From Minisyncoccota bacterium (GTDB lineage Bacteria > Patescibacteriota > Minisyncoccia > JAHIHE01 > JAGLIN01), in NCBI GenBank assembly GCA_023142995.1, contig JAGLIM010000006.1, positions 1-32,576 of the forward strand: a stretch of 32,576 nt of DNA, given 5' to 3'. Positions 15,011-31,894 of the stretch are shown piece after piece. A program made the translations under genes and the position numbers. The notes below the pieces were generated by a model that worked only from the letters and a program-made list of their open reading frames with translations, ran no database searches and was not told the origin of the DNA. Position 1 is the first letter of the stretch. The number at the start of each line of letters is the position of its first letter.

Positions 15011-15700
15011 ATGAACAAAAAAGAAAAGAAACCAGAGTTTGAGAAATATGAATATTCATCAGCAGCAGTTGATTTGGTAATTTTTTCCATAATAAACGGA
15101 GAGTTAAATGTTCTTTTAACTAAGATGAAATACAAACCGTTTGAAGGAAAATTGGCATTACCTGGTGGAAGGATCAGAGTTCATGAAAGTGTTGATGAAT
15201 GCGCAAAGCGTGAGATTAAAGAGAAGGTTGGGGTAAAAGATATTTATATAGAGCAACTTTATTCTTTCGGAGATGTAAAAAGAGATCCTTCGGTTAGAAT
15301 AATTTCCGTATCTTATCTTGCATTAGTAGATAGCATTGATAATATCAAGCTTGAAACAACTGAAAAGTATGAGAAGATCTATTGGACGCCAATTAATAAA
15401 GTTTCCAAATTGGCATATGACCATAATAAAATCTTAAAATATGCTCTTTTTAGATTAAAATCTAAACTAATTTATACAAATATTGTTTGCAATCTTTTAC
15501 CTAAAAAGTTTAGTTTAAGTGAGATGCAAAAGGTTCATGAAATTATTTTAGGCAGAAAACTGGATAAAAGAAATTTTCGTAAAAAGGTTTTGACTTTGGA
15601 TTTGATCAAAGAAGCGGGCAGGGAAGTAGGGGTTCCTCATCGTCCTTCAAAACTATATTCTTTTAAAACTAAAAAATTAATGATCATTGAAATGTTTTAG
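15011..15700 (+). CDS. nrtR: NrtR-family Nudix-related transcriptional regulator of NAD metabolism
   Basis: Nudix-like N-terminus (GKLALPGGRIRVHESVDECAKREIKEKVGV) with C-terminal winged-helix-like segment; beside NAD genes and palindromic operators. Confidence 0.87.
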   Translation: MNKKEKKPEFEKYEYSSAAVDLVIFSIINGELNVLLTKMKYKPFEGKLALPGGRIRVHESVDECAKREIKEKVGVKDIYIEQLYSFGDVKRDPSVRIISVSYLALVDSIDNIKLETTEKYEKIYWTPINKVSKLAYDHNKILKYALFRLKSKLIYTNIVCNLLPKKFSLSEMQKVHEIILGRKLDKRNFRKKVLTLDLIKEAGREVGVPHRPSKLYSFKTKKLMIIEMF

Positions 15701-15786: not shown

Positions 15787-15805
15787 TAGTGTAAACATTA
15801 CACTA
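15787..15805. promoter_or_regulatory. NrtR-like operator upstream of nadB
   Basis: TAGTGT-AAACATT-ACACTA perfect palindrome arms. Confidence 0.85.
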
Positions 15806-15835: not shown

Positions 15836-17407
15836 ATGAATAATCAGAAAATACTAAAAACAGATGTTTTGGTTTTAGGAACTGGAATTGCAGGATGTGT
15901 GGCAGCTTTGTGTTTGGCGGAAAATAAAAAGATAGAAGTTCTGCTTGTTACTAAAGATAAAGATATAAGACGATCGTCAACTTTGCGCGCACAAGGTGGG
16001 ATCATAGCAAGAGGTCAGAATGATTCAGCAGAAAAGTTGAAAAAAGACATCTTGCTTGCAGGTGATGGGTTGTGCAATGAAAAGGCGGTAGATATTTTAT
16101 CAAAAGAAGGTCCTGAACTTGTTGAAAGAATATTGATTGGAAAAGTTGGAGTGGAGTTCAATAAAAGCAAAGGAAAGTTAGATTATACAAAAGAAGCCGC
16201 GCATAGCGAAGACAGAATTCTCTATAAAAATGATCATACAGGGGAAGAAATAGAGAACAAGCTGACAAGAGCATTAAAGAGAAATAAGAACATTAAAATT
16301 CTAACAGATCACACGCTAGTTGACCTTTTGACTATGTCTCATCATGCGGTTGATAGGAGAAAAGTTTATCAGAATAAAAAGTGTGTTGGGGGCTATTTGC
16401 TTAACAATCAAAACGGTCTTGTTAAAACTGTTTTTGCCAAAAAAACAATTTTGGCAACAGGTGGGATTGGACAAGTGTATCTCAGGTCGACTAATCCTGA
16501 AATTGCAACTGGAGACGGACTCGCAACAGCTTTTCGGGCTGGAGCGGAAATTATTAATGCTGAGTATGTGCAGTTTCATCCCACTTCGTTATTTCATCGG
16601 GACGTAGATAACTTTCTTATTTCTGAGTCTCTCAGGGGAGAAGGCGCAAAGCTAAGGAATGAAAAAGGAAAGCTCTTTATGAAAAAATATGATAAGCGCG
16701 GAAGTTTGGCGCCGAGAGATATAGTTGCAAGAGGTATCTATGAAGAAATATTAAGCAGTAAAAAAGACTTTGTATATCTTGACCTTGCTTCTTATTTAGA
16801 TAGGAAATATATAGGGAAAAGGTTTCCTTTGATCTATAGAACATGTTTGAAATACGGTATAGATATAACAAGAGAGATGATTCCAGTTGCGCCAACTGCT
16901 CATTATTTTTGCGGAGGAATAAAGATTGATGAATTTGGTAAAAGCTCTTTGGAAAATCTATATGCAATTGGTGAAGTATCTTGTACGGGAGTTCATGGCG
17001 CGAATCGTCTTGCCAGTACATCTCTTTTAGAAGGACTTGTTTTTGCCAATAGATGTGCTGAAAATATATTAGGAAAAATAAGCGATAGTAGGTTAGTACA
17101 AAAAAGAGATATAAAACCGTGGATATATACAGGAGATCAAACTGTTGACCTTGCACTTATAAAGCAAGACTGGATGAGTCTGAAATCTATAATGTGGAAT
17201 TATGTAGGAATCGTAAGAACAGAAGAAAGGTTAGAAAGGGCCGTTTTAGATCTAAACTATTTGAAACACAGGATCGAAAAATTTTATTGTAATGTTTGTT
17301 TAGATAAAGATCTACTGGAATTAAGGAACGGTATTCAGACAGCGCTTATTATCGCAGAGGCAGCAAAGCAAAATAGGAAAAGTAGAGGATGTCATTATCG
17401 GAGTTAA
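15836..17407 (+). CDS. nadB: L-aspartate oxidase
   Basis: VLGTGIAGCVAALCLAE, SSTLRAQGGI, ATGGIGQVY, EYVQFHPTSL, SESLRGEGA, TAHYFCGGIKID, GVHGANRLASTSLLEGLVF. Confidence 0.95.
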   Translation: MNNQKILKTDVLVLGTGIAGCVAALCLAENKKIEVLLVTKDKDIRRSSTLRAQGGIIARGQNDSAEKLKKDILLAGDGLCNEKAVDILSKEGPELVERILIGKVGVEFNKSKGKLDYTKEAAHSEDRILYKNDHTGEEIENKLTRALKRNKNIKILTDHTLVDLLTMSHHAVDRRKVYQNKKCVGGYLLNNQNGLVKTVFAKKTILATGGIGQVYLRSTNPEIATGDGLATAFRAGAEIINAEYVQFHPTSLFHRDVDNFLISESLRGEGAKLRNEKGKLFMKKYDKRGSLAPRDIVARGIYEEILSSKKDFVYLDLASYLDRKYIGKRFPLIYRTCLKYGIDITREMIPVAPTAHYFCGGIKIDEFGKSSLENLYAIGEVSCTGVHGANRLASTSLLEGLVFANRCAENILGKISDSRLVQKRDIKPWIYTGDQTVDLALIKQDWMSLKSIMWNYVGIVRTEERLERAVLDLNYLKHRIEKFYCNVCLDKDLLELRNGIQTALIIAEAAKQNRKSRGCHYRS

Positions 17408-17417
17408 AAAACATTTT

Positions 17418-17616
17418 TGTCATTCTGAACTTGTTTCAGAATCTGTTGACTATTACGGTAATTAAATCTATAAATCACAAACATTTTGATTAAATTGCAA
17501 ACACAGCTACTGAATAATAAAAAATGATTGTGTTTGCGTTGTAGATGAAAATATAGTGTAAGTAATATAAATCGAATCCAAAATAGAAAAGATCCTGAAA
17601 CAAGTTCAGGATGACA
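17418..17616. repeat. composite palindromic (REP-doublet/MITE-like) element
   Basis: TGTCATTCTGAACTTGTTTCAGAATCT ... GATCCTGAAACAAGTTCAGGATGACA as inverted ends; related element at 32102-32210. Confidence 0.7.
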
Positions 17617-17649
17617 ATTCTATTATAAATTTATTAATAAATAACAATC

Positions 17650-18558
17650 ATGAATAATTTAAATTTAATAGAAAAGATAAATGAGTTAAAAGAAAAGCGA
17701 AGCGCGATAATTTTAGCCCATAACTATCAATTGCCAGAAGTTCAGGATATTGCTGATTTTGTAGGAGACTCATTGGAGCTTGCGCAAATTTCTGCAAAAA
17801 CTGATGCGAAAGTAGTGGTTCTGTGCGGAGTACGTTTTATGGCAGAAACAGCGGCGATGATAAGTCCAAAAAAGAAAATTCTTCTTCCTGACAAAACAGC
17901 AGGTTGTCCGATGGCTGAAATGGTTAGCGTGGAAAAAGTGCGAGAAATGAAGAAACAATATCCTAAAGCTGCAGTGGTATGCTATGTGAATTCTACTGCG
18001 GAAATAAAAGCGGAAAGTGATATTTGTTGTACTTCAAGTAACGCACTGAAGATAGTTGAGTCTTTGAAAAACTATAAGCAGGTAATCTTTATTCCAGATA
18101 AATATTTAGGACATTTTCTGTCCTTGTCATCTGAGAAGGAATTTATTCTTGCGAATGGCTATTGTCCTACTCACGCAAAAATATCTTCAAAATTAATTGA
18201 TGAATTAAAAGTGAAATATAAAGATGCTAAAGTTCTTGTTCATGGAGAATGTACTCCAGAGATCAAAGAAAAAGCTGATAAGGTTCTTAGCACAGGAAAG
18301 ATGTGTGATTATGTTCAAAACTCTTTAAAAAAAGATTTTATAATCGCAACTGAGAAGGAAATAATGCACAGAATGAAAAAAGAAAATCCCAAGAAAAATC
18401 TTATTCAAGCAAGTCCATTGGCGATATGTCCTGGTATGAAGAAAAATAATCTGGAAAAAATATTAAATGTTCTTGAAAATATGAAAAATGAAGTTAAAGT
18501 TGATGAAAAAGTAGAACTAAAAGCCAGAAAGTGTATTGATCGGATGCTTTTAATTTAA
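17650..18558 (+). CDS. nadA: quinolinate synthase
   Basis: ILAHNYQLPEVQDIADFVGDSLELAQ, VLCGVRFMAETAAMISPKKKILLPD, HGECTPEI, CPGMKKNNLEKI. Confidence 0.96.
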   Translation: MNNLNLIEKINELKEKRSAIILAHNYQLPEVQDIADFVGDSLELAQISAKTDAKVVVLCGVRFMAETAAMISPKKKILLPDKTAGCPMAEMVSVEKVREMKKQYPKAAVVCYVNSTAEIKAESDICCTSSNALKIVESLKNYKQVIFIPDKYLGHFLSLSSEKEFILANGYCPTHAKISSKLIDELKVKYKDAKVLVHGECTPEIKEKADKVLSTGKMCDYVQNSLKKDFIIATEKEIMHRMKKENPKKNLIQASPLAICPGMKKNNLEKILNVLENMKNEVKVDEKVELKARKCIDRMLLI

Positions 18559-18593
18559 ATGAAATTTAATTGTGAATGCCGTGTGAATGTCCT

Positions 18594-18622
18594 TGACAAG
18601 CATATTGATATTTGTTAGTTTA
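18594..18622 (+). promoter_or_regulatory. possible promoter for the 18811-23341 cassette
   Basis: TTGACA followed by an AT-rich -10-like region, then a ~190-nt leader. Confidence 0.4.
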
Positions 18623-18686
18623 ATATGTTGTCGTAATTTATTTTACGGTGGTTTTATGTGAAGTATTTGCACTTTAACAAACAATT

Positions 18687-18733
18687 TTATGGTTTAAACA
18701 AGACTTAGCTCTGAAGTTTTGTTTAAGCCATAA
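18687..18733 (+). promoter_or_regulatory. 20-bp hairpin in leader of kinase/vWA/AdSS cassette
   Basis: TTATGGTTTAAACAAGACTT-AGCTCTG-AAGTTTTGTTTAAGCCATAA; all 20 positions pair, with two G-U. Confidence 0.8.
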
Positions 18734-18810
18734 GATTTATATAAAAATTAATTCTTAAATGGCTGAAATAGTTATAAGGAAAGAAAATAAGAAAGAAAAG
18801 GAGTGATCAA

Positions 18811-19629
18811 ATGACAGAGATAATAAATGGCTCTAATCGATATAGAGTCATTAAAGAAGTGGCAAGGTCTGAACATTATCATCTCTACTTGTGTAAACAA
18901 AAAGAGACACAATGTCAGTGCTTGCTACAAATAGCAATTACGGTAGAACATAACGGTGAACTTCAGCGCGCAGCATACATTCTTAGAGAACTTGCATTTC
19001 ATGCTGATAGGCTTGAAGAAGAGTATAAGAATGTAAAAACTGATCCAAATGTTTTGCTTAATTATCAACTCGGATTTCCCGAGGTGGTGGATAGTTTTAT
19101 TTGCCAAGAGCAGGGCAGGCGACAAATCAACATTTTTGCATTTAGGAATGTAGATGATGTAGCTGATATGGTGCCGCTTGCGAATATTACAACCAAAGAC
19201 AATTTGCGTATTGATTTGCGCACCAGTGCGTGGATTATGGGTAAAGCTCTAAAACTGCTTGATTTTGTTTATGGTCAGGGTATTTCAGTTGATTTAATGA
19301 CTGGAGAAAATATACTGATCAATGCCAAACAACATTATGTAGTGATATTTGACTTGGTACAAGCACAAATATTTGAGCAAATGGTTCCAAAGGATATCAG
19401 AGGTCGCGAAATTTCGCAGACAGCAAGTGCTGTAATTATCGCTCTGGGGGGAGATGTGAAAACAGGAATTTTCCCAGAGAATGACAGTAGAGAATATATC
19501 GACTATTTATTGCAAATGGCTCGTGGAAATGTGAGTAATGCAAAAAGAGCGCACGAAGATTTCTATGAAATAGTTGATCGGATTTGGAAACGAGAATTCT
19601 ATCCTTTTACGGTTGAGCAATTGAAGTAG
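18811..19629 (+). CDS. divergent protein-kinase-like protein
   Basis: GQGISVDLMTGENILINAKQHYVVIFDLVQ resembles catalytic loop/DFG (HRDxxxxN...DFG) with changes. Confidence 0.5.
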   Translation: MTEIINGSNRYRVIKEVARSEHYHLYLCKQKETQCQCLLQIAITVEHNGELQRAAYILRELAFHADRLEEEYKNVKTDPNVLLNYQLGFPEVVDSFICQEQGRRQINIFAFRNVDDVADMVPLANITTKDNLRIDLRTSAWIMGKALKLLDFVYGQGISVDLMTGENILINAKQHYVVIFDLVQAQIFEQMVPKDIRGREISQTASAVIIALGGDVKTGIFPENDSREYIDYLLQMARGNVSNAKRAHEDFYEIVDRIWKREFYPFTVEQLK

Positions 19630-19659
19630 AATATAAATGAAACGGAGGAATGATATATA

Positions 19660-20799
19660 ATGGGAAAATTAGTAGTAACAAGAGACACTTATGAAAAGGC
19701 GGTTGAGAAGCATGTATCGACAAAAGGACCAGCAACAAGAAGAGCGGAGCAAGAAGCTCACGCTACAGGCAAACTTCATTCGCTTGTTGATCCGGCTGGG
19801 TTTGGCGTAATTCGTTGTTCTTTGCCTCGATTTGAGAAACAAGGTGATGGTCTTTGGCGTCTCACAGTTGGTACGCCAGTACCAGTTGAAACTATTGTTG
19901 ATACAACTGGTAGCATGGGAGGCAATGTTGATGTAGCGTTACGCAGATTGCCAGACGCATATGCTTTATGCAGTGATATTTTACCTGAAGGCTGTGATCT
20001 TCAAATCGCTACCGGAATTTTTGGAGATGTGGTTGATAGATTTGTTCTATGTCGTCCACAATTTGAAATGGAGGCTGGTAAAATTGTTGAGCAATTAACG
20101 CTGATGGTACCAGAGCGAGCTGGGGGTGATTTTACAGAAGATCCTCAATATGGTCTCTTTGGAGCAGCATATCTTTCTAATTGTTATATCAACAGAATCG
20201 GTCTTAAGGAATATCATTTTGTGGTTACGGATGCACCGGCTCGTGATGAACTTGACGAAAGAGAACTTGTGCGGATTTTCGGCGATGAAATTTTTGAGAA
20301 GGTATCTGAGAATGGTCATCAAATCAATCGTCAAGGCTTGCCAACTACAGCTGAAGTTGTTCAGGATCTTTTGAAATATGCACACGCTTTTGTGTTGCAG
20401 GTTGATGAAGAGTTAAGAACAACCGAATTTTGGTCGGAAATATATGGTGTGAATCGAGTTGTGAAACTTCCTGACACCGAATATTTGCCACAGGTGCAGG
20501 CTGTTATTATTGGCCTTACCGAGGGAACGCTTAATCTTCAGGAGGTTAAAAAATTCCTAACAGACAACGGTATTTACGACAAAGATGCTGAGAAAATTTC
20601 TCGCTCTCTTGTCAATATTCCTTTGAGGGCGCAAGCAGATTTGCCAAATTTTGACAAGCGTCCCCGGAAAGGAGATCTTTTCAGGAATAAGACCGATGTT
20701 TGGCCAATTGACCAGGAAGATGTCGTAAAACTTGAATCCTCCGGAATAAATTCGGAGAGTGAGGATAATGATTCAAAAGAAGGTCTTGATTGGCTTTAG
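19660..20799 (+). CDS. vWA (MIDAS) domain protein
   Basis: ETIVDTTGSMGGNVD (DxTxS), GGDFTEDPQYGLFGA, HFVVTDAPARD; SD GGAGGAATG upstream. Confidence 0.75.
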   Translation: MGKLVVTRDTYEKAVEKHVSTKGPATRRAEQEAHATGKLHSLVDPAGFGVIRCSLPRFEKQGDGLWRLTVGTPVPVETIVDTTGSMGGNVDVALRRLPDAYALCSDILPEGCDLQIATGIFGDVVDRFVLCRPQFEMEAGKIVEQLTLMVPERAGGDFTEDPQYGLFGAAYLSNCYINRIGLKEYHFVVTDAPARDELDERELVRIFGDEIFEKVSENGHQINRQGLPTTAEVVQDLLKYAHAFVLQVDEELRTTEFWSEIYGVNRVVKLPDTEYLPQVQAVIIGLTEGTLNLQEVKKFLTDNGIYDKDAEKISRSLVNIPLRAQADLPNFDKRPRKGDLFRNKTDVWPIDQEDVVKLESSGINSESEDNDSKEGLDWL

Positions 20800-20836
20800 G
20801 ACATAAGACGAGACAGAATCAGAAGAGGTGATTGAT

Positions 20837-22228
20837 GTGAAAAAAATCTATATTGTCACCGATCTTGGTCCTGGTGACGGTGGAAAAGGTGGTGTGGTGC
20901 ATAAAATCGCAACAATGATGAATGCTCATACTGTTATAAAAGTTGGAGGTAGCCAAGGAAGCCATGGAGTCAAAACTTCAGAAGGATTTAACTATGCATT
21001 TAGTTATTGGGGATGCGGTACATTTGAGGGAATAAGAACACATATTTCTTCTCGGATGATCGTTCATCCAATTGGTTTATTAAATGAAGCTGAATTAATT
21101 CGATATGGTGGATTTGGTATTTATAATCTTTTTGATCTATTAACAATAGACGAAGAAGCATTATGTGCTACTCCATATCATGGAATTGTTTCGCGCCTAA
21201 AAGAGATGGCGCGAGGAGACGATCCTCGTGGAACAATCGGCACAGGTGTTGGTGAATCCTATCGTTACTCACAGCAATATCCAGATCTTGCAATTCAAGT
21301 TCGTGATCTATTGCGACCGAATCTCCGGGATCAGCTTATTGCTGTACGAGAACAGATACAGAGAGATTTATCTCCGATAATTGAGGGAGAATTTTTTCCC
21401 GAAGACCGCAAAATTATGGAAAAGGAGGTTTATCTTCTTTATGATGATGGCTATCTTGACTTTATTTTGAAGCAATTTCAAAAAGCAGGACAGAAAGCTA
21501 AAACTGTTGATCACGACTATCTCGGAAAGAAAATTCTTTCCAAAAACGGCGTGGCTGTGGTTGAAAGCTCTCATGGAGTTCTTACGGACCATTATCACGG
21601 TTTTTATCCGCATACCAGTGCTATTCGGACATTGCCTTGCTTTACGCAAACAATGCTCAAAGAAGCTGGCTTTGATGGACAAATCGTGAATATCGGAGTA
21701 TTCCGGGCCTATGCGATCAGACATGGTGCTGGACCGATGCCGACTGCCGATCCAACGATGGCGGAAAATCTTTTGCCAGGAAGTCATAAGGAAGAAAATC
21801 GCTGGCAAGGGAAAATACGAGTAGGACCGATTGATTTGGTTTTACTCCGTTATGCAATCAATGTCTGCGGTGGGCCATCTGCATTTGATGGTTTAGCTGT
21901 CACTTGGTTTGACCAGATCGAAAGAAATGGACAGTGGAAGATATGTAAACAATATAACAATAAAGATACTGATAATCGAACATATTTTACATCTTCGGGT
22001 GAAATCAAAGTTCGACAAGGAATAGATGATGAACAATCGGAATACCAAAGGAATCTTGGTAGACGGCTTTTGAGCTGTAGACCTGAGATTACAACTTTGA
22101 AAATTCCATCAGACGCAAAGCAAGAAGAGCTTTACTCGTTTTGCGCTGATGTTTCAGGAAAAGAACTTGGTATTCCAGTGAGAATGGTTTCGCTTGGTCC
22201 AACTGAGCGGGATAAGATTTGTAAGTAA
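20837..22228 (+). CDS. adenylosuccinate synthetase-like (PurA/PurZ superfamily), divergent
   Basis: VTDLGPGDGGKGGVVHKIA (cf. GDEGKGK), IKVGGSQGSHGV (cf. NAGHT), RGTIGTGVGESY (cf. IGTTGRGIGP), VLLRYAINVCGGPSAFDGLAVTWFDQI. SD favours GTG at 20837 over 20828. Confidence 0.8.
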   Translation: MKKIYIVTDLGPGDGGKGGVVHKIATMMNAHTVIKVGGSQGSHGVKTSEGFNYAFSYWGCGTFEGIRTHISSRMIVHPIGLLNEAELIRYGGFGIYNLFDLLTIDEEALCATPYHGIVSRLKEMARGDDPRGTIGTGVGESYRYSQQYPDLAIQVRDLLRPNLRDQLIAVREQIQRDLSPIIEGEFFPEDRKIMEKEVYLLYDDGYLDFILKQFQKAGQKAKTVDHDYLGKKILSKNGVAVVESSHGVLTDHYHGFYPHTSAIRTLPCFTQTMLKEAGFDGQIVNIGVFRAYAIRHGAGPMPTADPTMAENLLPGSHKEENRWQGKIRVGPIDLVLLRYAINVCGGPSAFDGLAVTWFDQIERNGQWKICKQYNNKDTDNRTYFTSSGEIKVRQGIDDEQSEYQRNLGRRLLSCRPEITTLKIPSDAKQEELYSFCADVSGKELGIPVRMVSLGPTERDKICK

Positions 22229-22255
22229 AGCAAAGAAAAAATATAACAGGAGAAG

Positions 22256-23341
22256 ATGATAAGTATGGCAGAAGAAGATACAGTAGATACAGTAGATATA
22301 GCGAAGAACGTAGATATCAAGCCTGAATCAGGCGAAGAAATAACAACAAGCGTTGATGAGTCCGTGACAACTGTTGATCAAGTTACTGCTAAGCTTGAAG
22401 AGCTGGGCGTTGATAGCGATATGATCAAGAAGATCAAGGAAATGGGTGCTGAGATGGTAAAGGATTTAGCCGGTCTTCAAGAGAAAGACCTTACTGATGC
22501 CGGAATGCCAATACTTAAGGCAAGAAAGTTGATTGCCGTGCTTGTTCCGACCAGTGGTGCTAATATTGATCCGAACAAAGAATTGGCAGATAATGAAAAA
22601 CCTTCAAGCGCTCAAGTGACCGGATTTGCAGGTGCTCTTGGAATAGATCCGACTACTTTGATGCTTCTTATGAACGGTCAAGGTGGAGACATGGATCTAT
22701 CAAGCATGATATCAATAGATGTCGTGGTCAATGGCTACAATCCCAAGCTTCGTAATATGTTTCTGATGATTATGGGACAGATCGAAGAACGTCTTGGTGT
22801 GCCTATCGTGGTAATTGATAGTGATGGTGCTGTTAATCGATCTCTCACAGCCGAGTATATTGAAGGTCTTGAAGAAAGCCGTGATTCTGCGGAAAATAAT
22901 ATCTACTTTGATATAGAAAGCGTTCCGCATGAAGTCATTAATGTCGGTGTAGATGCTCAAAGCATCTATGATGCTGATCCATTAATGCCTGATAAAGCTC
23001 TTCAAAAGAGTGGTATGGGTACTGGTCGGGTAAATTGGAATGGTGTTCCTCTTGAAGTACGGCAGGTAGCATATTTTGCTGTAACTGAAACAAAGGAGAT
23101 CAAACCAACCAGTGATGGACATCAAACATGGCTTCGTGGTCATATGAAGCCCGGTGTTAACCGTTTGATCTTCCATGGTCGAGCTCCGCAAGCAATCAGC
23201 GCATATAACGAAGCTGCTCGTACTGGTTCGTTGCCCACGCTTCGAGTTATGCTTTCGCGTAATCCGCGTAGCAAGGAGATAATGCCACGTCGTCGTAAGT
23301 CAAATCCTTCAGATTTGCTGACAGGAATTGGCAGCGAATAA
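22256..23341 (+). CDS. uncharacterised protein with SAM/HhH-like N-terminal segment
   Basis: KKIKEMGAEMVKDLAGLQEKDLTDAGMPILKARKLIAVL resembles SAM-type helical domain; remainder unrecognised; co-directional, short intergenic gap. Confidence 0.6.
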   Translation: MISMAEEDTVDTVDIAKNVDIKPESGEEITTSVDESVTTVDQVTAKLEELGVDSDMIKKIKEMGAEMVKDLAGLQEKDLTDAGMPILKARKLIAVLVPTSGANIDPNKELADNEKPSSAQVTGFAGALGIDPTTLMLLMNGQGGDMDLSSMISIDVVVNGYNPKLRNMFLMIMGQIEERLGVPIVVIDSDGAVNRSLTAEYIEGLEESRDSAENNIYFDIESVPHEVINVGVDAQSIYDADPLMPDKALQKSGMGTGRVNWNGVPLEVRQVAYFAVTETKEIKPTSDGHQTWLRGHMKPGVNRLIFHGRAPQAISAYNEAARTGSLPTLRVMLSRNPRSKEIMPRRRKSNPSDLLTGIGSE

Positions 23342-23375
23342 TCAAAAAATATTAAACCCGTAAAAAAACGGGAAT

Positions 23376-23410
23376 GGTCAAGTAGCTTCGTGCGCTTGGC
23401 CTCTTTTTTT
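23376..23410 (+). terminator. Rho-independent terminator ending the cassette
   Basis: GGTCAAG...CTTGGCC followed by TCTTTTTTT; preceded by CCCGT/ACGGG hairpin. Confidence 0.75.
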
Positions 23411-23411
23411 A

Positions 23412-23444
23412 TAAAAAATAACCGTCAGGTATAAGCCGACGGTT
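23412..23444 (-). terminator. Rho-independent terminator of the minus-strand nucleotidyltransferase gene
   Basis: Minus strand AACCGTC-ggcttatacct-GACGGTT followed by ATTTTTTAT. Confidence 0.65.
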
Positions 23445-23445
23445 T

Positions 23446-25353
23446 TCATTTTGTTATTTTAGGGACAGGAATTTTTGGCAAAAATACTTTACTAACAAAG
23501 AGTTTTGTTGCCAGTTGCCGATATCCAGAATCCCAGAACATACTCTTGTCATCAATTCCTCCAGCATGTAATGTATTAATGCCTCCATATTGAGGAAAGA
23601 ATTGCTCATATCCCTTATGCATCAATCTATATTGTAGAGTATCTTTCTCCAATTCCTCCAAATATAATCTTCGTGCATTAAGTCCATAGATTACTTTGTC
23701 AGTATCATATAGATAGGGAACTAACAATTTTTCAAGCAAATCATATATTGTCTTTTTATCACCAATCCAAGCGGAACCAAAAAGGACATGTGTCCAAGAG
23801 CTTTCACCAAGCGATACATCTAAATCATTAAAGTCACGGACTTGAATTATCCCATCTTTTTCTTCAAGCCAAAACTCAACAATTTTATCTTGAACCTTTT
23901 CATGCACGAAATGCTTTTTAAGCAAGTCTTGCAATTTTGCCCGATTATCAAAAGATATTCCCGGTCGTACAAATACGCCTAAATCAATATCGGCATTTTG
24001 CGCTCCATATCCTTTAAGACGAGAACCAAATACTAAGACTATCGGATATATAAGTTGTGACAACTCAGGATCTGATTTGATCAATGTAGTCATTTCTTGT
24101 ATATCGCATATTTCTTTTTTGATTAGCTTCAAGTTTTCTGAAAATGGTCCAGCCAATTTGGGAATAACAATATTTAATCTCGCCAATTGTTCATTATCAA
24201 TAATTCTTAGATGATAAAGATGACGAAAGGTTTTTGACAATGTCTCATTGATTTGATCATTATCATTTTTCCAAAGTCTCAGCATAGTATCCCGATATTG
24301 TTCGTAGATTTTCAAAGCTCTATTAAGATCGATTGACGCCATGAATTCAATTGCTTTTCGAATTCCTTCAATCAATACTTGTATGCTTGCGATATTGATC
24401 TCTTGATCAAGAAATTTTGTTATTGATTCACTTGTTATATCATCTTCGATAGCTGCTGTGCTGACAATTTCTGCCAAAGTTTCAATAGCTTTTTGTTTCT
24501 TGCTTTCTTTCAACCAATTCCTTCTTTTCTCTGTTATATCACTATATATTGTCGTATCTATACGGAGAAATTCCTTAATTATCTCTTCTTGAACAAATGA
24601 AAGTACTGTTGTTCTCGGTGCTACCTTGATTTTTCTGTCTTTTATATACATATCTGTCTGAATAATTCGAGCAATACTGCTAATATAATAATCAGTAGAT
24701 TTTTCCATAAACTCAAATTCTTCTTCTGTGATCAGACATAGATCAGCTAGAACAGGAAGTGTAGCAACAATGCTATCTCTCAGCGTTTGATCATTACTTT
24801 CCTCCATAAACGTAACAATATCTTTAACTTCTATCAATCCATTTTCAATCAACTTTGGTATGAGATGAGCTGCTTTTACTACGCGAGGTAAATCACCAAT
24901 GCGTTGTTCAATCTCGAGCACATCTCCATCCAAAAAGTTGGCGCGTACATCCTGAACCAAAAGTAAATCTTTCCAAGCTTTTAGATATATTCGTTTAAAT
25001 CGATCCAAAGTTTGTTGAAGTATTCGTTTAGAAGGATGCCACGTTTTGCTTGGCAAGAATTCAAACGGGAGATAAAGGATAAGGCGTTTATATTCTTGAT
25101 TGTGTTCTAGTAAATCGCTTAAAGAGGTAAAGAGTTTTGCCACCTGTTCTTCGTTAATATACTCTTGTTTAATTGCAGTTTCAAGAGATATATCTGGTCG
25201 TGGTAAATAATTTATGATCTCATTAAGTCGATCAAGTAATATTTTTCTTTGTTCTGTCTGTTTCCAGAAAACTTTACTAGCCGTAATACTTTTGGGCCAA
25301 ACCTTGACCGTGTAAACAGGATCAAGGAATGATTCGTTAACTACCAGAATCAC
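23446..25353 (-). CDS. large helical protein with pol-beta-type nucleotidyltransferase domain
   Basis: YPIVLVFGSRLKGYGAQNADIDLGVFV (GSxxxG...DxD); third-acid candidate FNDLDVSLG; N-terminal ~400 aa helical, no recognised family. Confidence 0.75.
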   Translation of the reverse strand: MILVVNESFLDPVYTVKVWPKSITASKVFWKQTEQRKILLDRLNEIINYLPRPDISLETAIKQEYINEEQVAKLFTSLSDLLEHNQEYKRLILYLPFEFLPSKTWHPSKRILQQTLDRFKRIYLKAWKDLLLVQDVRANFLDGDVLEIEQRIGDLPRVVKAAHLIPKLIENGLIEVKDIVTFMEESNDQTLRDSIVATLPVLADLCLITEEEFEFMEKSTDYYISSIARIIQTDMYIKDRKIKVAPRTTVLSFVQEEIIKEFLRIDTTIYSDITEKRRNWLKESKKQKAIETLAEIVSTAAIEDDITSESITKFLDQEINIASIQVLIEGIRKAIEFMASIDLNRALKIYEQYRDTMLRLWKNDNDQINETLSKTFRHLYHLRIIDNEQLARLNIVIPKLAGPFSENLKLIKKEICDIQEMTTLIKSDPELSQLIYPIVLVFGSRLKGYGAQNADIDLGVFVRPGISFDNRAKLQDLLKKHFVHEKVQDKIVEFWLEEKDGIIQVRDFNDLDVSLGESSWTHVLFGSAWIGDKKTIYDLLEKLLVPYLYDTDKVIYGLNARRLYLEELEKDTLQYRLMHKGYEQFFPQYGGINTLHAGGIDDKSMFWDSGYRQLATKLFVSKVFLPKIPVPKITK

Positions 25354-25582: not shown

Positions 25583-25627
25583 TTGACAATATCTTCAGTA
25601 ATGATACTATGTGTATAGTCAACACTA
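25583..25627 (+). promoter_or_regulatory. promoter P1 (TTGACA-N16-TACTAT) with NrtR-like operator ATGTGT-N7-ACACTA at 25609-25627
   Basis: Near-duplicate of nrtR promoter region (GATACTATGTGTATAG[AT]CAACACTAA). Confidence 0.8.
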
Positions 25628-25664
25628 ACTATATTAATTAAAGCTTTTTATTTTTAAACTGACT

Positions 25665-25683
25665 TAGTGTAGATAATACACTT
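25665..25683. promoter_or_regulatory. second NrtR-like operator upstream of nadE operon
   Basis: TAGTGT-AGATAAT-ACACTT. Confidence 0.75.
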
Positions 25684-25966: not shown

Positions 25967-26842
25967 ATGAATGGAAATGAAGTAAAAGAAATCTATGACT
26001 TATTTGAAAGACAGATTCCTTTTTATGAGGAATTTAGAGATATTGGTAGAGATAATCTTGAGATCATAGTTGACGAGATTGTAGCTTTTATCAGGTTTCA
26101 TCACATTAATGTTAAAAATGGTGAAATCGCAAAAGCTGTTGTTGGTATTTCAGGAGGAGTAGATTCTTCTGTTGTATTAGCACTGGTTAAAAGAGCTTTA
26201 GGTGCGGAAAATGTAATTGCAGTAAAGATGCCATATATTGGAATAAGTTCAAAGGAAAGTATATTTTATGCGAATTCTCTTGTTGAAAAATTTGGGATAC
26301 AAGATGTTCGTGAGATATCAATAAATGAAGCTGCTGATGCAATTATTGGTGGTGTTGGGAGATCTGGAGATGATCTTACTTCATTTGTCAAAGGAAATAC
26401 TATGGCAAGAATGAGAATGTCTATTCTCTATGCTATAGCTGGAGCAAGTGGTGGCAGAGTTATTGATACTTGCAACGTGACTGAAATCCGTATGGGTTAT
26501 TATACTAAACATGGAGATGGTGCTAGTGATCATAATCCTGTAGGAAATCTGTATAAAACCTGGGTTTGGGATCTTGCAAAGTTTCTTGAAGTTCCTCAAA
26601 AGATCATTGACAGGGCTCCTTCTCCTGAATTAGAAGAAGGGCAAACTGATGAGGATGATATGAAGATCACTTATAGGGCCTTGGATCTGCTTTTATATCT
26701 TATGTATGACAAAGGTATAAGCAAACAAGACTTAATTAAGGATTATTATTTTCCAGAAGAGGTGATCGATATGGTTATCGGAAAAATAAGAGGAAGCGAA
26801 CATAAGAGACATCTTGCACCTGTTTGCAAGATCGATCTGTAA
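25967..26842 (+). CDS. nadE: NH3-dependent NAD+ synthetase
   Basis: VVGISGGVDSSVVLALV, GNTMARMRMSILYAIA, CNVTEIRMGYYTKHGDGASDHNPVGNLYKTWVWDLAKFL, PSPELEEGQTDEDDM. Confidence 0.96.
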   Translation: MNGNEVKEIYDLFERQIPFYEEFRDIGRDNLEIIVDEIVAFIRFHHINVKNGEIAKAVVGISGGVDSSVVLALVKRALGAENVIAVKMPYIGISSKESIFYANSLVEKFGIQDVREISINEAADAIIGGVGRSGDDLTSFVKGNTMARMRMSILYAIAGASGGRVIDTCNVTEIRMGYYTKHGDGASDHNPVGNLYKTWVWDLAKFLEVPQKIIDRAPSPELEEGQTDEDDMKITYRALDLLLYLMYDKGISKQDLIKDYYFPEEVIDMVIGKIRGSEHKRHLAPVCKIDL

Positions 26843-26880: not shown

Positions 26881-27777
26881 ATGGCAATCCAAATACAATC
26901 AGCTTCATTTGTCATTGAAGATGTTGACTGCAATCAAGGATGTAAATTTTGCGTTGCAAGAATGACATTTTCTCCTAAAGTTAAAGAGTTTGATGAGGAG
27001 AAATATCTCAAAAAGATGAAGAGAGTATTGAAATATGTAAAAAGTGGTGGTGCTCAAACAGCAATTATTACCAGCAAAGGAGAAACTCTTCTTTCAAGCA
27101 AAAGCTATCTCTTGAAGGCCATTGGTCTTTTAGAGAAAGATTTTGGTCAGATCGATCTTCATACTAACGGCTCTTTGCTTACCAGAGAAATGGCCGAAAG
27201 TTTCTATGATGCTGGTCTTACTAATATAACGCTGTCCGTTCCAAGTTTGGATAAAGATAGTTTGGTAAGTATTACTGAAGGTTTTGTGGACTATAAAAAC
27301 ATTATCGCTTTTTGCAGAAATGTTGGTTTGGCGGTTCGTTTAAGCTGTGTCACAAATAAGCAAGGTGTCAAAGATCTTGATTCTATGCTTGAATATATAG
27401 AGAAGGCAAAGCTGATGGGAGCTCATCAAATTGTTTTTAGAGAACTATGGATTCCTGAAAATTCAAAGAAGAATAATCCAGAAGTTTATAAATGGAGTAA
27501 AGAAAATTTTGTCCCGCTTGGAAAATTTAGAGAATATGTAGAGTTACTCAATGAAGAAGGAAAGGCTCATTACATATTTACCCTTCCTTGGGGAGAAAAA
27601 GTCTATGACATAGAAGGAATGAATATTACTTGCGCAACCTGTACGACAAATTATTATAATTCAGGATCGTGCGGTGATGACAGTACAAATGTCAGCAACA
27701 CTATAAAAAGCGTTGTACTCCTTCCAGATGGTCATTTATATTCCAGTTGGGAACTTGGAGGGTCAATGATCTTCTAG
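26881..27777 (+). CDS. radical SAM protein of unknown function in NAD operon
   Basis: DCNQGCKFC (CxxxCxxC), LHTNGSLL, LSVPSLDKDSL; C-terminal Cys cluster CATCTTNYYNSGSC. Confidence 0.88.
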   Translation: MAIQIQSASFVIEDVDCNQGCKFCVARMTFSPKVKEFDEEKYLKKMKRVLKYVKSGGAQTAIITSKGETLLSSKSYLLKAIGLLEKDFGQIDLHTNGSLLTREMAESFYDAGLTNITLSVPSLDKDSLVSITEGFVDYKNIIAFCRNVGLAVRLSCVTNKQGVKDLDSMLEYIEKAKLMGAHQIVFRELWIPENSKKNNPEVYKWSKENFVPLGKFREYVELLNEEGKAHYIFTLPWGEKVYDIEGMNITCATCTTNYYNSGSCGDDSTNVSNTIKSVVLLPDGHLYSSWELGGSMIF

Positions 27778-27854
27778 TATAGTATTGATCAAACCTGAGA
27801 ACTTGTTCAAGTTTTCAGGGGGAAACATCTATTTTATCTTTTGAGGTGGCAAGA

Positions 27855-28751
27855 ATGAGAATTGGGATTGTATATGACTCGCATAAAAAAGAAGCAAGAA
27901 AGCTTGCTTTAGAAGTTGATAACTGTTTGCGAGAAAAGGTTGAAGAAGTTTCTGTTTACGCTGAAGAGGTGTTTCTGGAATTGGATAACAGTATAGTAAG
28001 AACTTTCACAGAAGTAATCACTTTCGGTGGAGATGGACTTGTTCTGCATATAGCGAACAAAGTTGCTCCTTTTGGAATCGGAATGCTAAGAGTTAATTTT
28101 GGAGAAGTTGGCTTTTTAACCAACGTGGAATCAAATGAAGTGTTTCCTGAACTGAATAATTTTCTTGAGGGTAAATATAAAGAAGTTGAAAGAGTTCGAA
28201 TGCAGGGAACAGTCAAGAGAGGTGTGGTCATTGATGAAATAAAAAAAGAAGTGACTGGAGGAAAAGTAAAATCAAGACTTGATTCTCTAAACGAACTTTA
28301 TACCGGTGGCATAACAAGTACTGTTTTCTTGAGACTAATAGTTGTCGGAAAAGAATCTTTTGAGGTTACAACAAAAGGAGACGGAGCGATATTTTCTTCT
28401 CGGACGGGGTCAACAGGTTACAACCTTAATGCTGGAGGTCCAGTATTGCATACTGATTTGGTTTTTGCTGTTACAGCAAGTAATGGACTGTTTAGCTATA
28501 AGGCACCAATGCCTAATAGCAAACTTGTAAACGAGAATTCATTTGTTCTAGAGACTGGTTTTCTAGAGACTGGATTTAAAATACTTGTTCAAGTAACTAG
28601 GCAATGGAAAAAAAATATGCCTTATCTGATAGCGGATGCTGATTCGAAATTCAAGCTTTTGGAGGGTGATGTTGTTCTGATAGAGAGATCGCCACAAAGT
28701 ACGATATTTCTAGAAAGAGAGAGGGAAGCAGAGAAATGGAAGATATTATGA
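27855..28751 (+). CDS. nadK: NAD kinase
   Basis: EVITFGGDGLVLHIA, GIGMLRVNFGEVGFLTN, SSRTGSTGYNLNAGGPVL; SD GAGGTG favours ATG at 27855. Confidence 0.92.
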   Translation: MRIGIVYDSHKKEARKLALEVDNCLREKVEEVSVYAEEVFLELDNSIVRTFTEVITFGGDGLVLHIANKVAPFGIGMLRVNFGEVGFLTNVESNEVFPELNNFLEGKYKEVERVRMQGTVKRGVVIDEIKKEVTGGKVKSRLDSLNELYTGGITSTVFLRLIVVGKESFEVTTKGDGAIFSSRTGSTGYNLNAGGPVLHTDLVFAVTASNGLFSYKAPMPNSKLVNENSFVLETGFLETGFKILVQVTRQWKKNMPYLIADADSKFKLLEGDVVLIERSPQSTIFLEREREAEKWKIL

Positions 28752-28764
28752 ATGATTGGAGGAT

Positions 28765-29319
28765 ATGATGAAAGATAGAATTATAGGACAAGGAAGTCAT
28801 TTGAAGCTAGTAGAGATTAATTGGATTGATGACGAGGGAAATAAAAGAAAATGGGAAGCTGTTAAAAGAATGACTACTGGTACGGGTATTGTATCTGTTA
28901 TGGCAATTACTGATGAAAGCGAAATCATTTTTGTTAGTCAGTATCGTCCTCCAGTTGGAGGAGAAGTGATTGAATTCCCAGCTGGTCTTTGTGATCAAAA
29001 AGGCGAAGCGTTGGAAGAAACAGCCCTGAGAGAATTGCAAGAGGAAACTGGATATCGGGCCAAAAAGATTGAAAAACTTTTTGCTGGTCCTGTTTCCGCT
29101 GGACTTTCTTTTGAGTTTCTAACTGTTTTTTGGGCCACAGATCTTGAATTTGTCGGCAAGAAAGATGGACGAGAAGAAAGAGGGATTACTGTTTATAAAA
29201 TCCCATTTAAAGAAGCAGATGAATGGCTTCGTGGTATGGAAAAAAAAGGTATGCTTGTAGACGTCAAATTGTGGGCGCGTATAAGCTATATCAAAGATAT
29301 TTTGAGTGTTGCAGATTAG
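28765..29319 (+). CDS. Nudix hydrolase, ADP-ribose pyrophosphatase-like
   Basis: Nudix box GEALEETALRELQEETGY; EFPAGLCD; SD ggagg before ATG at 28765. Confidence 0.9.
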   Translation: MMKDRIIGQGSHLKLVEINWIDDEGNKRKWEAVKRMTTGTGIVSVMAITDESEIIFVSQYRPPVGGEVIEFPAGLCDQKGEALEETALRELQEETGYRAKKIEKLFAGPVSAGLSFEFLTVFWATDLEFVGKKDGREERGITVYKIPFKEADEWLRGMEKKGMLVDVKLWARISYIKDILSVAD

Positions 29320-29355
29320 TTTGTGGCGCTAAATTTTCAGGAGGATGATAGTAAG

Positions 29356-29832
29356 ATGAAAAGAATAGGATTGGTAGTAGCAAGAATGCAACCATTACAT
29401 CTCGGGCATATTTCTTTGATAGAAACAGCCATACGAGGGAACGATGAGATTGTGATTTGCATTGGATCTGCTCAAAAAGCTGAGCCTCTTCCTATAGAGG
29501 AACGGCGAGAGAGGATAGCTGAGAAACTTAATTCTCTTGGATATGACACAGGGCTATATAGAATCTTTGAATTGGATGATATTGAGTCTGACGAAGAATG
29601 GCCTTTGTATTTGAAGAATGGATGTGAAATCACGGACGGAACCGAAAACACTTTTTACACTTCGGACAGTCTGCCGGAAAGCTATCTGAAAGCAATGAGA
29701 GATCTTGGCTTTCGGATAAGAACTATTGAAAGAGGTTCGTTTGATTACGAAGCTTCTAACGGTATGGTTTATAAAGTATCTTCAGCAACGAAGATTAGGG
29801 AGATTTGTAAAAGGCTTGGTTTGAGAGTATAG
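29356..29832 (+). CDS. nadM: nicotinamide-nucleotide adenylyltransferase (NadM-type)
   Basis: GLVVARMQPLHLGHISLIETA, IGSAQKAEPLPIEERRERI, KVSSATKIREI; SD AGGAGG before ATG at 29356. Confidence 0.85.
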   Translation: MKRIGLVVARMQPLHLGHISLIETAIRGNDEIVICIGSAQKAEPLPIEERRERIAEKLNSLGYDTGLYRIFELDDIESDEEWPLYLKNGCEITDGTENTFYTSDSLPESYLKAMRDLGFRIRTIERGSFDYEASNGMVYKVSSATKIREICKRLGLRV

Positions 29833-29856: not shown

Positions 29857-31323
29857 ATGATGGATATAAATAATTGGGAATACGATGAACAAAAGACACG
29901 ACCAGGCGATCCGTTGATTGCCGACAAGTATCATTTCACTCAAATAAAAACAATTTGGGCATTAGGATTTTCTGAAGTCAAAACAGTTCATGATTGTTTT
30001 GTCAGAAGAACTCCTTTTGGTAGCTATCTGCTGGTGAATGGAATTGAAAGAGTGATAAAGCATCTGCATAATTTTAGATTTACTGCTGAAGATATTGAAG
30101 CAATAAGTTTAATGGATCCGCTCAGTTTAACGCCAAAGTATGATGGATATCTTGACTATCTTGCAAATCTTCGATTTAAAGGAGATGTATGGGCCATTCC
30201 GGAGGGAAATTTAGCTTTTCCAAAAGAACCCATTTTGAGAGTTGAGGGCAATTGGGCTGAAACATGGATGGTTGAAAGTGCGATCTTGAAAGCGGTTGAT
30301 GATGCTTCTTTGATTGCAACTTATGCGTCAAGGGTAAAAGAGGCGGCAGGTCGAGTTCCATCATTTGATTTTGGTTTAAGAAGATCAAAAGGTGACGGGG
30401 CTAATGTAAGTTCTGCAAGAGCTGCTTATGTCGGAGGGTTGGATGCGACCTCGAATGGTAGAGCTGCGAGCAATCTTAAAATTCCATGGGTAGGGACAAC
30501 ATCTCATGAAGGAATTGCTGGTTTGACGGCTTTATTGGGATCAGAAGTTGACGCTTTTGTGGCTATGATGACACATAACGAAGGAAATGACGTACTCATC
30601 GCAGACACTTTTAGCACAATGTCAGGAACTGAGAATATAAAAAGAGCGGCTAAGATTGTTGGCAGACCGGTAAAAGGGGTGCGAACCGACAGTGGCGACA
30701 CAATTGGATATGCTTTTAAGATGAGGGAAAGTGATCCAAATAAAGAAGGTTTTGAAGGAATTATGCCTACTGGCGACTATACTTTTGAATTGATCCACGA
30801 GGCCATAAAAAGAGGAGCTCCGGTAACGGGATTTGCTGTTGGAGGAAAAATGGTTGCGCCATCAAATCCAACAACCGCGGGTTCTGTGTATAAGCTTGTC
30901 GCAATGAATATTGACGAAGAAATGGTTCCAGTCATCAAAATATCTGATGACGAAATCAAAACTCTTCTTCCTGATAGAAAAAATACCTGGCGAAAAGTAG
31001 ATGGTGGACAGATCATTGGCGATGTCATCGCGTCTGATAATGAAGGGAAGCCAGACGGAGAGTATGAGCCAGTTTTGGTTCAGGTAATGAGGGGAGGTAA
31101 CACTAGAAGAAGTAAGATACTCATTGAACCTAGAGATTTGCAGGACATTCAGGCATTCGCGCGGGAAAACATCGCGATGTTGCCGACAAAATATCGCCGA
31201 ATAGAAAATCCTGTGCCATATCCGGTTAGGATCAGCGATAACCTGAAAGATCTACAGAGAAAGATAATTTCAGAGATTAAAGCAAAACAAGCTCAGATTG
31301 ATGAGATTGTGATAATCCAATAA
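29857..31323 (+). CDS. pncB: nicotinate phosphoribosyltransferase (NAPRT/NAMPT family)
   Basis: FDFGLRRSKGDGANVSSARAAYVGGLDATSN, VGTTSHEG, GVRTDSGD, FAVGGKMV. Confidence 0.85.
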   Translation: MMDINNWEYDEQKTRPGDPLIADKYHFTQIKTIWALGFSEVKTVHDCFVRRTPFGSYLLVNGIERVIKHLHNFRFTAEDIEAISLMDPLSLTPKYDGYLDYLANLRFKGDVWAIPEGNLAFPKEPILRVEGNWAETWMVESAILKAVDDASLIATYASRVKEAAGRVPSFDFGLRRSKGDGANVSSARAAYVGGLDATSNGRAASNLKIPWVGTTSHEGIAGLTALLGSEVDAFVAMMTHNEGNDVLIADTFSTMSGTENIKRAAKIVGRPVKGVRTDSGDTIGYAFKMRESDPNKEGFEGIMPTGDYTFELIHEAIKRGAPVTGFAVGGKMVAPSNPTTAGSVYKLVAMNIDEEMVPVIKISDDEIKTLLPDRKNTWRKVDGGQIIGDVIASDNEGKPDGEYEPVLVQVMRGGNTRRSKILIEPRDLQDIQAFARENIAMLPTKYRRIENPVPYPVRISDNLKDLQRKIISEIKAKQAQIDEIVIIQ

Positions 31324-31336
31324 GGAGGAAGATGAA

Positions 31337-31894
31337 ATGACCAGTAGGACAATGATAAGAGGTATAATACTTGTAGTAGACGATATAGATGGGTTTCTCA
31401 AAGAAGGAATTCTTGCCGATAAGAAGAACATGGTGGTTGTTCCAGAGACAAGAAAGCTCTTGAGAAGGAAAATTTCCGAAGGATGGGAAGTTATATTCCT
31501 ATGCGATAGTCACAAAGAGGGAGATCCTGAGCTTCAAATATTTGAGGATCACTGCATGGCTGGGACAAAGGAAGCTAAGGTAGTTGATGAATTATTTGAG
31601 TTTGTCACTCCAGAGAACTATATTCCAAAGCCTGGTCATGATGGTTTTTATGGCACTAATCTGGAAGAAATCATTAAGCAGAAGAATCCAGAGAAGATAG
31701 TTGTTGTTGGTGTTTGTACGGATGTCTGTGTATTGTACACAATAATCGGTCTACGCAATATCAAATTGCCAAATCCTGATTGTCAAGTAATAGTTCCAAA
31801 AGATTGTGTTAGAGCGTTTGATGTAGCTAACACAGACGTGTGGTTTGCTCACATGAAAAATGTTTTGGATGTTCAGGTAGTTAAAAAACAGTAG
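31337..31894 (+). CDS. pncA: nicotinamidase/isochorismatase-family hydrolase
   Basis: VVDDIDGFLKEG, CDSHKEGDPELQIFEDHCMAGT, VVGVCTDVCVLYT. Confidence 0.85.
   Translation: MTSRTMIRGIILVVDDIDGFLKEGILADKKNMVVVPETRKLLRRKISEGWEVIFLCDSHKEGDPELQIFEDHCMAGTKEAKVVDELFEFVTPENYIPKPGHDGFYGTNLEEIIKQKNPEKIVVVGVCTDVCVLYTIIGLRNIKLPNPDCQVIVPKDCVRAFDVANTDVWFAHMKNVLDVQVVKKQ

Follow-up and report, generated by a model that had tools for sequence, protein, structure and literature searches.

A stretch of 32,576 nucleotides (the window) from a Minisyncoccota bacterium (GenBank assembly GCA_023142995.1, contig JAGLIM010000006.1) carries five adjacent genes, here called K, V, A, P4, and P5, within an nrtR-nadBA...nadE-pncBA cluster for the metabolism of nicotinamide adenine dinucleotide (NAD). 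It is proposed, with a probability of roughly one half, that these genes are a member of a widespread module linked to NAD metabolism, composed of a pseudokinase (K), a vWA-like protein (V), and a nucleotide ligase derived from the adenylosuccinate synthetase (AdSS) PurA (A), to which P4 and P5 would be patescibacterial accessories. The proposal is built on the conservation of the module, the order of its genes, the residue changes in A, and the adjacency of NAD genes, from which the mechanism is inferred.

Relatives of A were gathered with the A sequence alone (80 loci on genome contigs and 80 on viral contigs, together with loci from Patescibacteria, plasmids, and phages), and co-occurrence was scored with family profiles on all open reading frames (ORFs) of those loci that had at least 3 kb upstream (n = 156). 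V lies on the same strand within 5 kb of A in 154 of the 156 loci, and K is present as well in 123; as a control, V was sought around 21 patescibacterial housekeeping purA genes (1.5-kb flanks) and was found at none of them. Some of the viral contigs are near-duplicates of one another, and the loci include species that are related; the counts are consequently not counts of independent events, but the loci do span several phyla and phages. This co-occurrence is far above random, which bears out the suspicion, raised in an original prediction for this DNA, that an unfamiliar combination of genes is a real system. K-V-A is a conserved module and not a local accident.

The module occurs in Patescibacteria, Actinobacteria, Chloroflexi, Myxococcota, Variovorax, and large phages, the last represented by 80 loci and by the C1 mycobacteriophages. 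The fuller arrangement of the window, in which K, V, A, and P4 follow one another on the plus strand with gaps of 30, 28, and 27 nucleotides (nt) and P5 is convergent at the P4 end, is as the original prediction had described it, and the same order is repeated in five other patescibacterial genomes (G065, G600, G461, G373, and G440). When the window AdSS alone was used to query viral contigs, nothing was returned, whereas relatives did emerge when viral contigs were scanned with an alignment; no viral relatives were retrieved with P4 or P5 as queries, and P5 had no plasmid match. No description of the K-V-A combination was found in the open-access literature, although an earlier account in subscription journals is possible. 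The individual folds are already known; what is apparently undescribed, since we could not find a previous account, is that they occur together so constantly, that the pseudokinases bear the signature HGAVxPxH/DWC, and that the setting is one of NAD genes. As separate observations, a pyruvate-kinase-like TIM-barrel protein of about 310 amino acids recurs beside the module in loci L010, L011, L017, L053, L091, and L179, and two GCS2-type genes resembling glutamate-cysteine ligase lie downstream of the module in genome G040 (L010:15166-17388).

The connection with NAD extends well beyond the window. Of the 177-179 collected loci, 61 have NrtR-type genes close to the module, with 65 of 66 matches on the same strand. 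Among 18 actinobacterial genomes, each with one to three NrtR_WHD genes, 16 have one within 5 kb of A, against an expected 0.053. NAMPT-family genes accompany the module in 11 of the 80 viral loci, some of which also have NadM-Nudix, CinA/NMNAT-like, or phosphoribosyl pyrophosphate (PRPP)-synthetase-like genes, and nadE or nadD adjoins the module in L011, L017, L091, and L179. The NAD link is strong but not universal, and the suggestion that the cassette is NAD-linked, first drawn from its position in the window, is sustained by the actinobacterial and viral loci. Within the window, the palindrome GTGTATAGWCAACACTAA is likely to be an NrtR operator, binding being predicted from sequence: it has exactly two perfect copies in the 1.48-Mb genome, one of them, GTGTATAGACAACACTAA, upstream of nrtR and the other between P5 and nadE. 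A further palindrome, TAGTGTAAACATTACACTA, upstream of nadB is a candidate operator; it matches its pattern perfectly, and at up to three mismatches that pattern would be expected 0.15 times per window. A third, weaker candidate box is given in Table 1. As PMC9503650 recounts from the primary work it cites, NrtR proteins sense ADP-ribose.

The carriage of the module by phages allows for another explanation, in which K-V-A is a conflict system: in phages it would protect or replenish NAD, or another nucleotide, under attack by defences of the NADase type, and the bacterial copies would be defence or stress versions. The phage loci themselves support this idea, and the 11 with NAMPT-family genes recall the NAD reconstitution pathway outlined in PMC12774641. 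However, the window has no defence-island context, PADLOC matched no system there beyond weak matches to the nucleotidyltransferase domain, and the bacterial copies are numerous, chromosomal, and placed beside NrtR, a homeostasis regulator. A conflict system thus seems unlikely, if well short of negligible. The defence function entertained in the original prediction may be correct, but NAD maintenance or counter-defence would explain at least equally well why phages carry the module in addition to bacteria.

Searched individually, K, V, and P4 of the window give no Pfam match, and K and V were assigned through family profiles from which the window and its close kin had been left out. Window K matches such a profile at 1.9e-27; the K family profile in turn matches the solved kinases CK2 and PknA in the PDB, with E values of about 1e-18 to 1e-17, and the family member in G040 matches Pfam Pkinase at 6e-29. 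By these profiles, K belongs to a protein-kinase fold family. Judged by its motifs, however, it is a pseudokinase family. Among 135 members, the catalytic Asp of HRD is replaced by Ala in 96 and kept in only 13, and the Asn is replaced by His in 103; the DFG Asp is kept in 97, with DFG often reading DWC or DWS, and the ATP-binding Lys of VAIK is kept in 124. In window K, VAIK Lys has become Gln and HRD Asp has become Leu, while the DFG Asp is present. The claim of a degenerate kinase fold is thus well founded. An N-terminal J-domain HPD motif is found in 74 of the 135 K proteins, some of which have DnaJ Pfam matches; window K has no J domain. Apart from this, the phage genes at L104:10416-11552 and L110:10510-11709 directly follow the pseudokinase gene and encode proteins in which a CTP_transf_like nucleotidylyltransferase domain is fused to an N-terminal region, which in L104 has a weak CinA match.

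Window V matches its family profile at 2.4e-38 and has the sequence DTTGS at its putative metal-ion-dependent adhesion site (MIDAS). A MIDAS-type D-x-T/S-G-S motif is present in 163 of 178 V members, and D81, G84, S85, E160, and D191 are invariant in 32 aligned members. In this respect the prediction of a MIDAS vWA protein was correct. The vWA fold, in contrast, is not independently proven: neither Pfam nor the PDB offers a match to V that rises above noise, and comparison by hhalign with E. coli ViaA, YeaH, and YfbK yields 61, 52, and 34%.

The TerY-P triad (vWA, kinase, and PP2C) invites comparison, since here too a kinase fold is paired with a vWA-like partner; on this reading, an active kinase would phosphorylate the vWA protein or the enzyme. 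The G040 kinase, which keeps HGD in addition to its Pkinase match, speaks for this. However, K does not qualify as an active Ser/Thr protein kinase because its catalytic residues are lost by motif, and this is true of most of the 135 members; window K lacks the VAIK Lys as well. In addition, no PP2C partner was found among the annotated neighbours in the loci examined, and it is A that is the constant partner. Phosphorylation of the TerY type, which the original prediction had raised, is consequently improbable.

A is the only member of the K-V-A module in the window with a Pfam match, to the AdSS domain PF00709 at 2.6e-36. It scores 92 and 87 bits against purA equivalog models with cut-offs of 402 and 396. 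When 168 aligned cassette A sequences were compared by E. coli PurA numbering, the catalytic residues Asp13 and His41 and the P-loop Lys16 were kept in 100%, Gln224 in 95%, and Asp333 in 99%. In contrast, the PurA aspartate loop TTGRxRR is replaced by WQG-xFR in essentially all of the sequences: Thr301 becomes Gln in 97%, the Arg303 column is empty in 100%, and Arg305 becomes Phe in 77%. Furthermore, Val273 is His in 100%, and Asn38 is changed to Gln. The prediction of a divergent AdSS-like enzyme therefore stands as to family but not as to the aspartate-binding loop, which is gone. Because the catalytic residues are kept while this loop is replaced, A may well retain phosphoryl activation and would have a changed acceptor.

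Could A simply be the organism's own adenylosuccinate synthetase, a replacement for PurA? In the window genome (G000), A is the sole PF00709 gene, no canonical purA was found, and a purB-like gene is present at C49:14212-15489. However, PF00709 is matched more than once in 27 of the 29 other carrier genomes, mostly by a clear purA and a weaker cassette copy; thus, in most hosts A is an extra copy beside purA. In addition, Thr301 and Arg303 are replaced in essentially all of the A sequences, and V is almost always found with A. In a tree, the branch between the cassette members and PurA is 1.64 changes per site long and has 100/100 support; those cassette members that are accompanied by P4 and P5 group in a single clade (100/99). 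A housekeeping role of this kind is very improbable. Least credible of all is that A supplies phage DNA with a modified purine nucleotide in the manner of PurZ/PurZ0, the 2-aminoadenylosuccinate synthetase of Z-genome phages: PurZ is likewise a PurA paralog carried by phages, and PHROGs, where the phage homologues have three separate entries (kinase, unknown, and '2-aminooxy adenylosuccinate synthetase'), uses a similar label, but at the position of Asp13, which is Asp in A, every phage PurZ has Ser (PMC12884076), A scores 15.6 bits against the PurZ model NF038379 with its cut-off of 300, no dutZ/datZ-type neighbours were noticed around A, and bacterial copies have no use for such a nucleotide.

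The two remaining proteins, P4 and P5, are regarded as patescibacterial accessories. The N-terminal 60 or so amino acids of P4 are SAM-like, as predicted, and the same domain is found in the G065, G373, and G440 proteins; between the window and G065, 53% of these 60 residues are shared and the remainder is unrelated. The C-terminal type of the window is common to G600 and G461. A comparison of window P4 with L009:8583-9725 likewise shows the SAM-like N-terminus kept and unrelated C-terminal regions swapped between otherwise orthologous loci. P5, 53% identical to its G065 counterpart, is convergent to P4 in all six homologues, two of which are shorter. Its predicted pol-beta-type nucleotidyltransferase motif GS...DxD was confirmed by PF18765 (1.3e-6), and the GS..KGY...DxD site (G443, S444, D455, and D457) is invariant in the six. 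Two other assignments for P5 were rejected. Its PDB matches are generic helical repeats on a weak model and were disregarded, and as a type VII MntA antitoxin it scores 23 bits against the NF047752 cut-off of 60, with no HEPN neighbour recognised.

Returning to the proposed NAD-linked module, these results can be accommodated by the following model. NrtR would control the cluster, and expression of the module would accordingly coincide with NAD breakdown. K and V would form an ATP- or metal-dependent scaffold or chaperone that holds or gates A. With Asp13 and His41, A would transfer phosphate from a nucleoside triphosphate to the oxo group of a substrate resembling a purine nucleotide, and would then join the activated substrate to a partner other than aspartate, thus serving the repair, salvage, or modification of a nucleotide of the NAD pathway. 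In the patescibacterial lineage, P4 may serve as an adaptor, and the product, or else a partner protein, may be nucleotidylated by P5. A bolder form of this idea is held more tentatively, at somewhat less than even odds: bacteria and large phages may have in common an NAD-pathway enzyme system that makes or repairs a nucleotide outside current NAD biochemistry. Its ligase, derived from PurA, would have acquired a new specificity for an amine or acceptor and would be under the control of a J-domain pseudokinase together with a vWA-like protein.

Several points weigh against this model. Among the NAD genes scanned for, none is present in 69 of the 80 viral loci and in about 29 of the 80 bacterial loci. 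The candidate boxes of the window stand at nrtR, nadB, and P5/nadE, and none lies directly before K. The vWA fold of V is argued from motifs only, and the structure models of P5 and P4 are poor (predicted local distance difference test values of 63 and 41). Finally, the reading of the A residues leans on the roles generally assigned to their counterparts in the E. coli enzyme.

The known systems that come closest are PurA, PurZ, the TerY triad, and NAD reconstitution in phages; every one of them differs in one or more defining features or is without the K-V-A components. Phage NAD reconstitution (NAMPT, NMNAT, and Adps/Namat) has related genes in the 11 viral contigs with the module, but K, V, and A are not part of the pathways as described. 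Neighbourhoods with a Nudix/WYL regulator, an ADP-ribosylglycohydrolase, and a vWA protein (PMC9503650) have in common with K-V-A a Nudix-type regulator, a vWA protein, and the theme of ADP-ribose. However, no ADP-ribosylglycohydrolase or phosphatase was recognised with K-V-A, and the neighbourhoods as presented in that source have no PurA paralog or pseudokinase.

The layout of the locus is given in Table 1. A shared leader and a shared terminator had been proposed for K-V-A-P4, and both features were located, the leader with a hairpin and the terminator as a hairpin followed by a T-run; Rfam gave no match. In addition, a 27-nt repeat, TGTCATTCTGAACTTGTTTCAGAATCT, is present as an inverted pair at 17417-17617, between nadB and nadA. 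It has 72 copies genome-wide at up to three mismatches, frequently paired in inverted orientation with a spacing of about 170 nt, and is a REP/MITE-like (repetitive extragenic palindromic/miniature inverted-repeat transposable element-like) element.

Table 1. Features of the five-gene cassette and its surroundings (positions in the window).
Feature	Position	Strand	Remarks
Candidate NrtR box GTGTATAGACAACACTAA	14979-14996		upstream of nrtR; perfect copy; predicted binding
nrtR, Nudix + NrtR winged-helix regulator	15011-15700	+	PF21906 8e-23, PF00293 3e-14
Palindrome TAGTGTAAACATTACACTA, candidate operator	15787-15805		upstream of nadB; perfect match
nadB, L-aspartate oxidase	15836-17407	+	TIGR00551 481 bits, above cut-off
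nadA, quinolinate synthase	17650-18558	+	TIGR00550 342 bits, above cut-off
Leader	18559-18810		between nadA and K
Leader hairpin	18683-18737	+	24-nt arms, 88% complementary; predicted fold -26.6 kcal/mol
K	18811-19629	+	ORF; member without J domain
V	19660-20799	+	ORF; MIDAS-type motif
A	20828-22228	+	ORF; PurA paralog, rebuilt aspartate loop
P4	22256-23341	+	ORF; SAM-like N-terminal domain and swappable C-terminal region
Predicted intrinsic terminator of K-V-A-P4	about 23376-23411	+	GGTCAAG...CTTGGCC then TCTTTTTTT; stretch folds at -13.7 kcal/mol
Terminator-like hairpin of P5	23420-23444	-	stem of 9 base pairs, 5 GC pairs
P5	23446-25353	-	ORF convergent to P4; helical N-terminal region and pol-beta-type nucleotidyltransferase
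Second candidate NrtR box	25611-25628		gap between divergent P5 and nadE; perfect copy
Third, weaker candidate box	25664-25681		3 mismatches
nadE, NAD synthase	25967-26842	+	PF02540 6e-64
Radical-SAM gene	26881-27777		between nadE and NAD kinase-like gene, inside NAD cluster
NAD kinase-like	27846-28751	+	PF01513 1.2e-9
Nudix hydrolase	28756-29319	+	PF00293 1.8e-11
Nicotinamide mononucleotide (NMN) adenylyltransferase-like, HIGH-type nucleotidyltransferase	29323-29832	+	PF01467 2e-5
pncB, nicotinate phosphoribosyltransferase	29857-31323	+	PF17767 8e-25
pncA-like, isochorismatase-family	31337-31894	+	PF00857 3.6e-26

NAD is a central cofactor and a main battleground between phages and bacteria. 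A module that is carried by both, is repeatedly joined to NrtR and NAD salvage genes, and is centred on a purine enzyme with a replaced pocket suggests an NAD-related reaction that has yet to be mapped. The module is accessible in culturable hosts, for example Micromonospora, Streptomyces, and Variovorax, as well as in phage I3.

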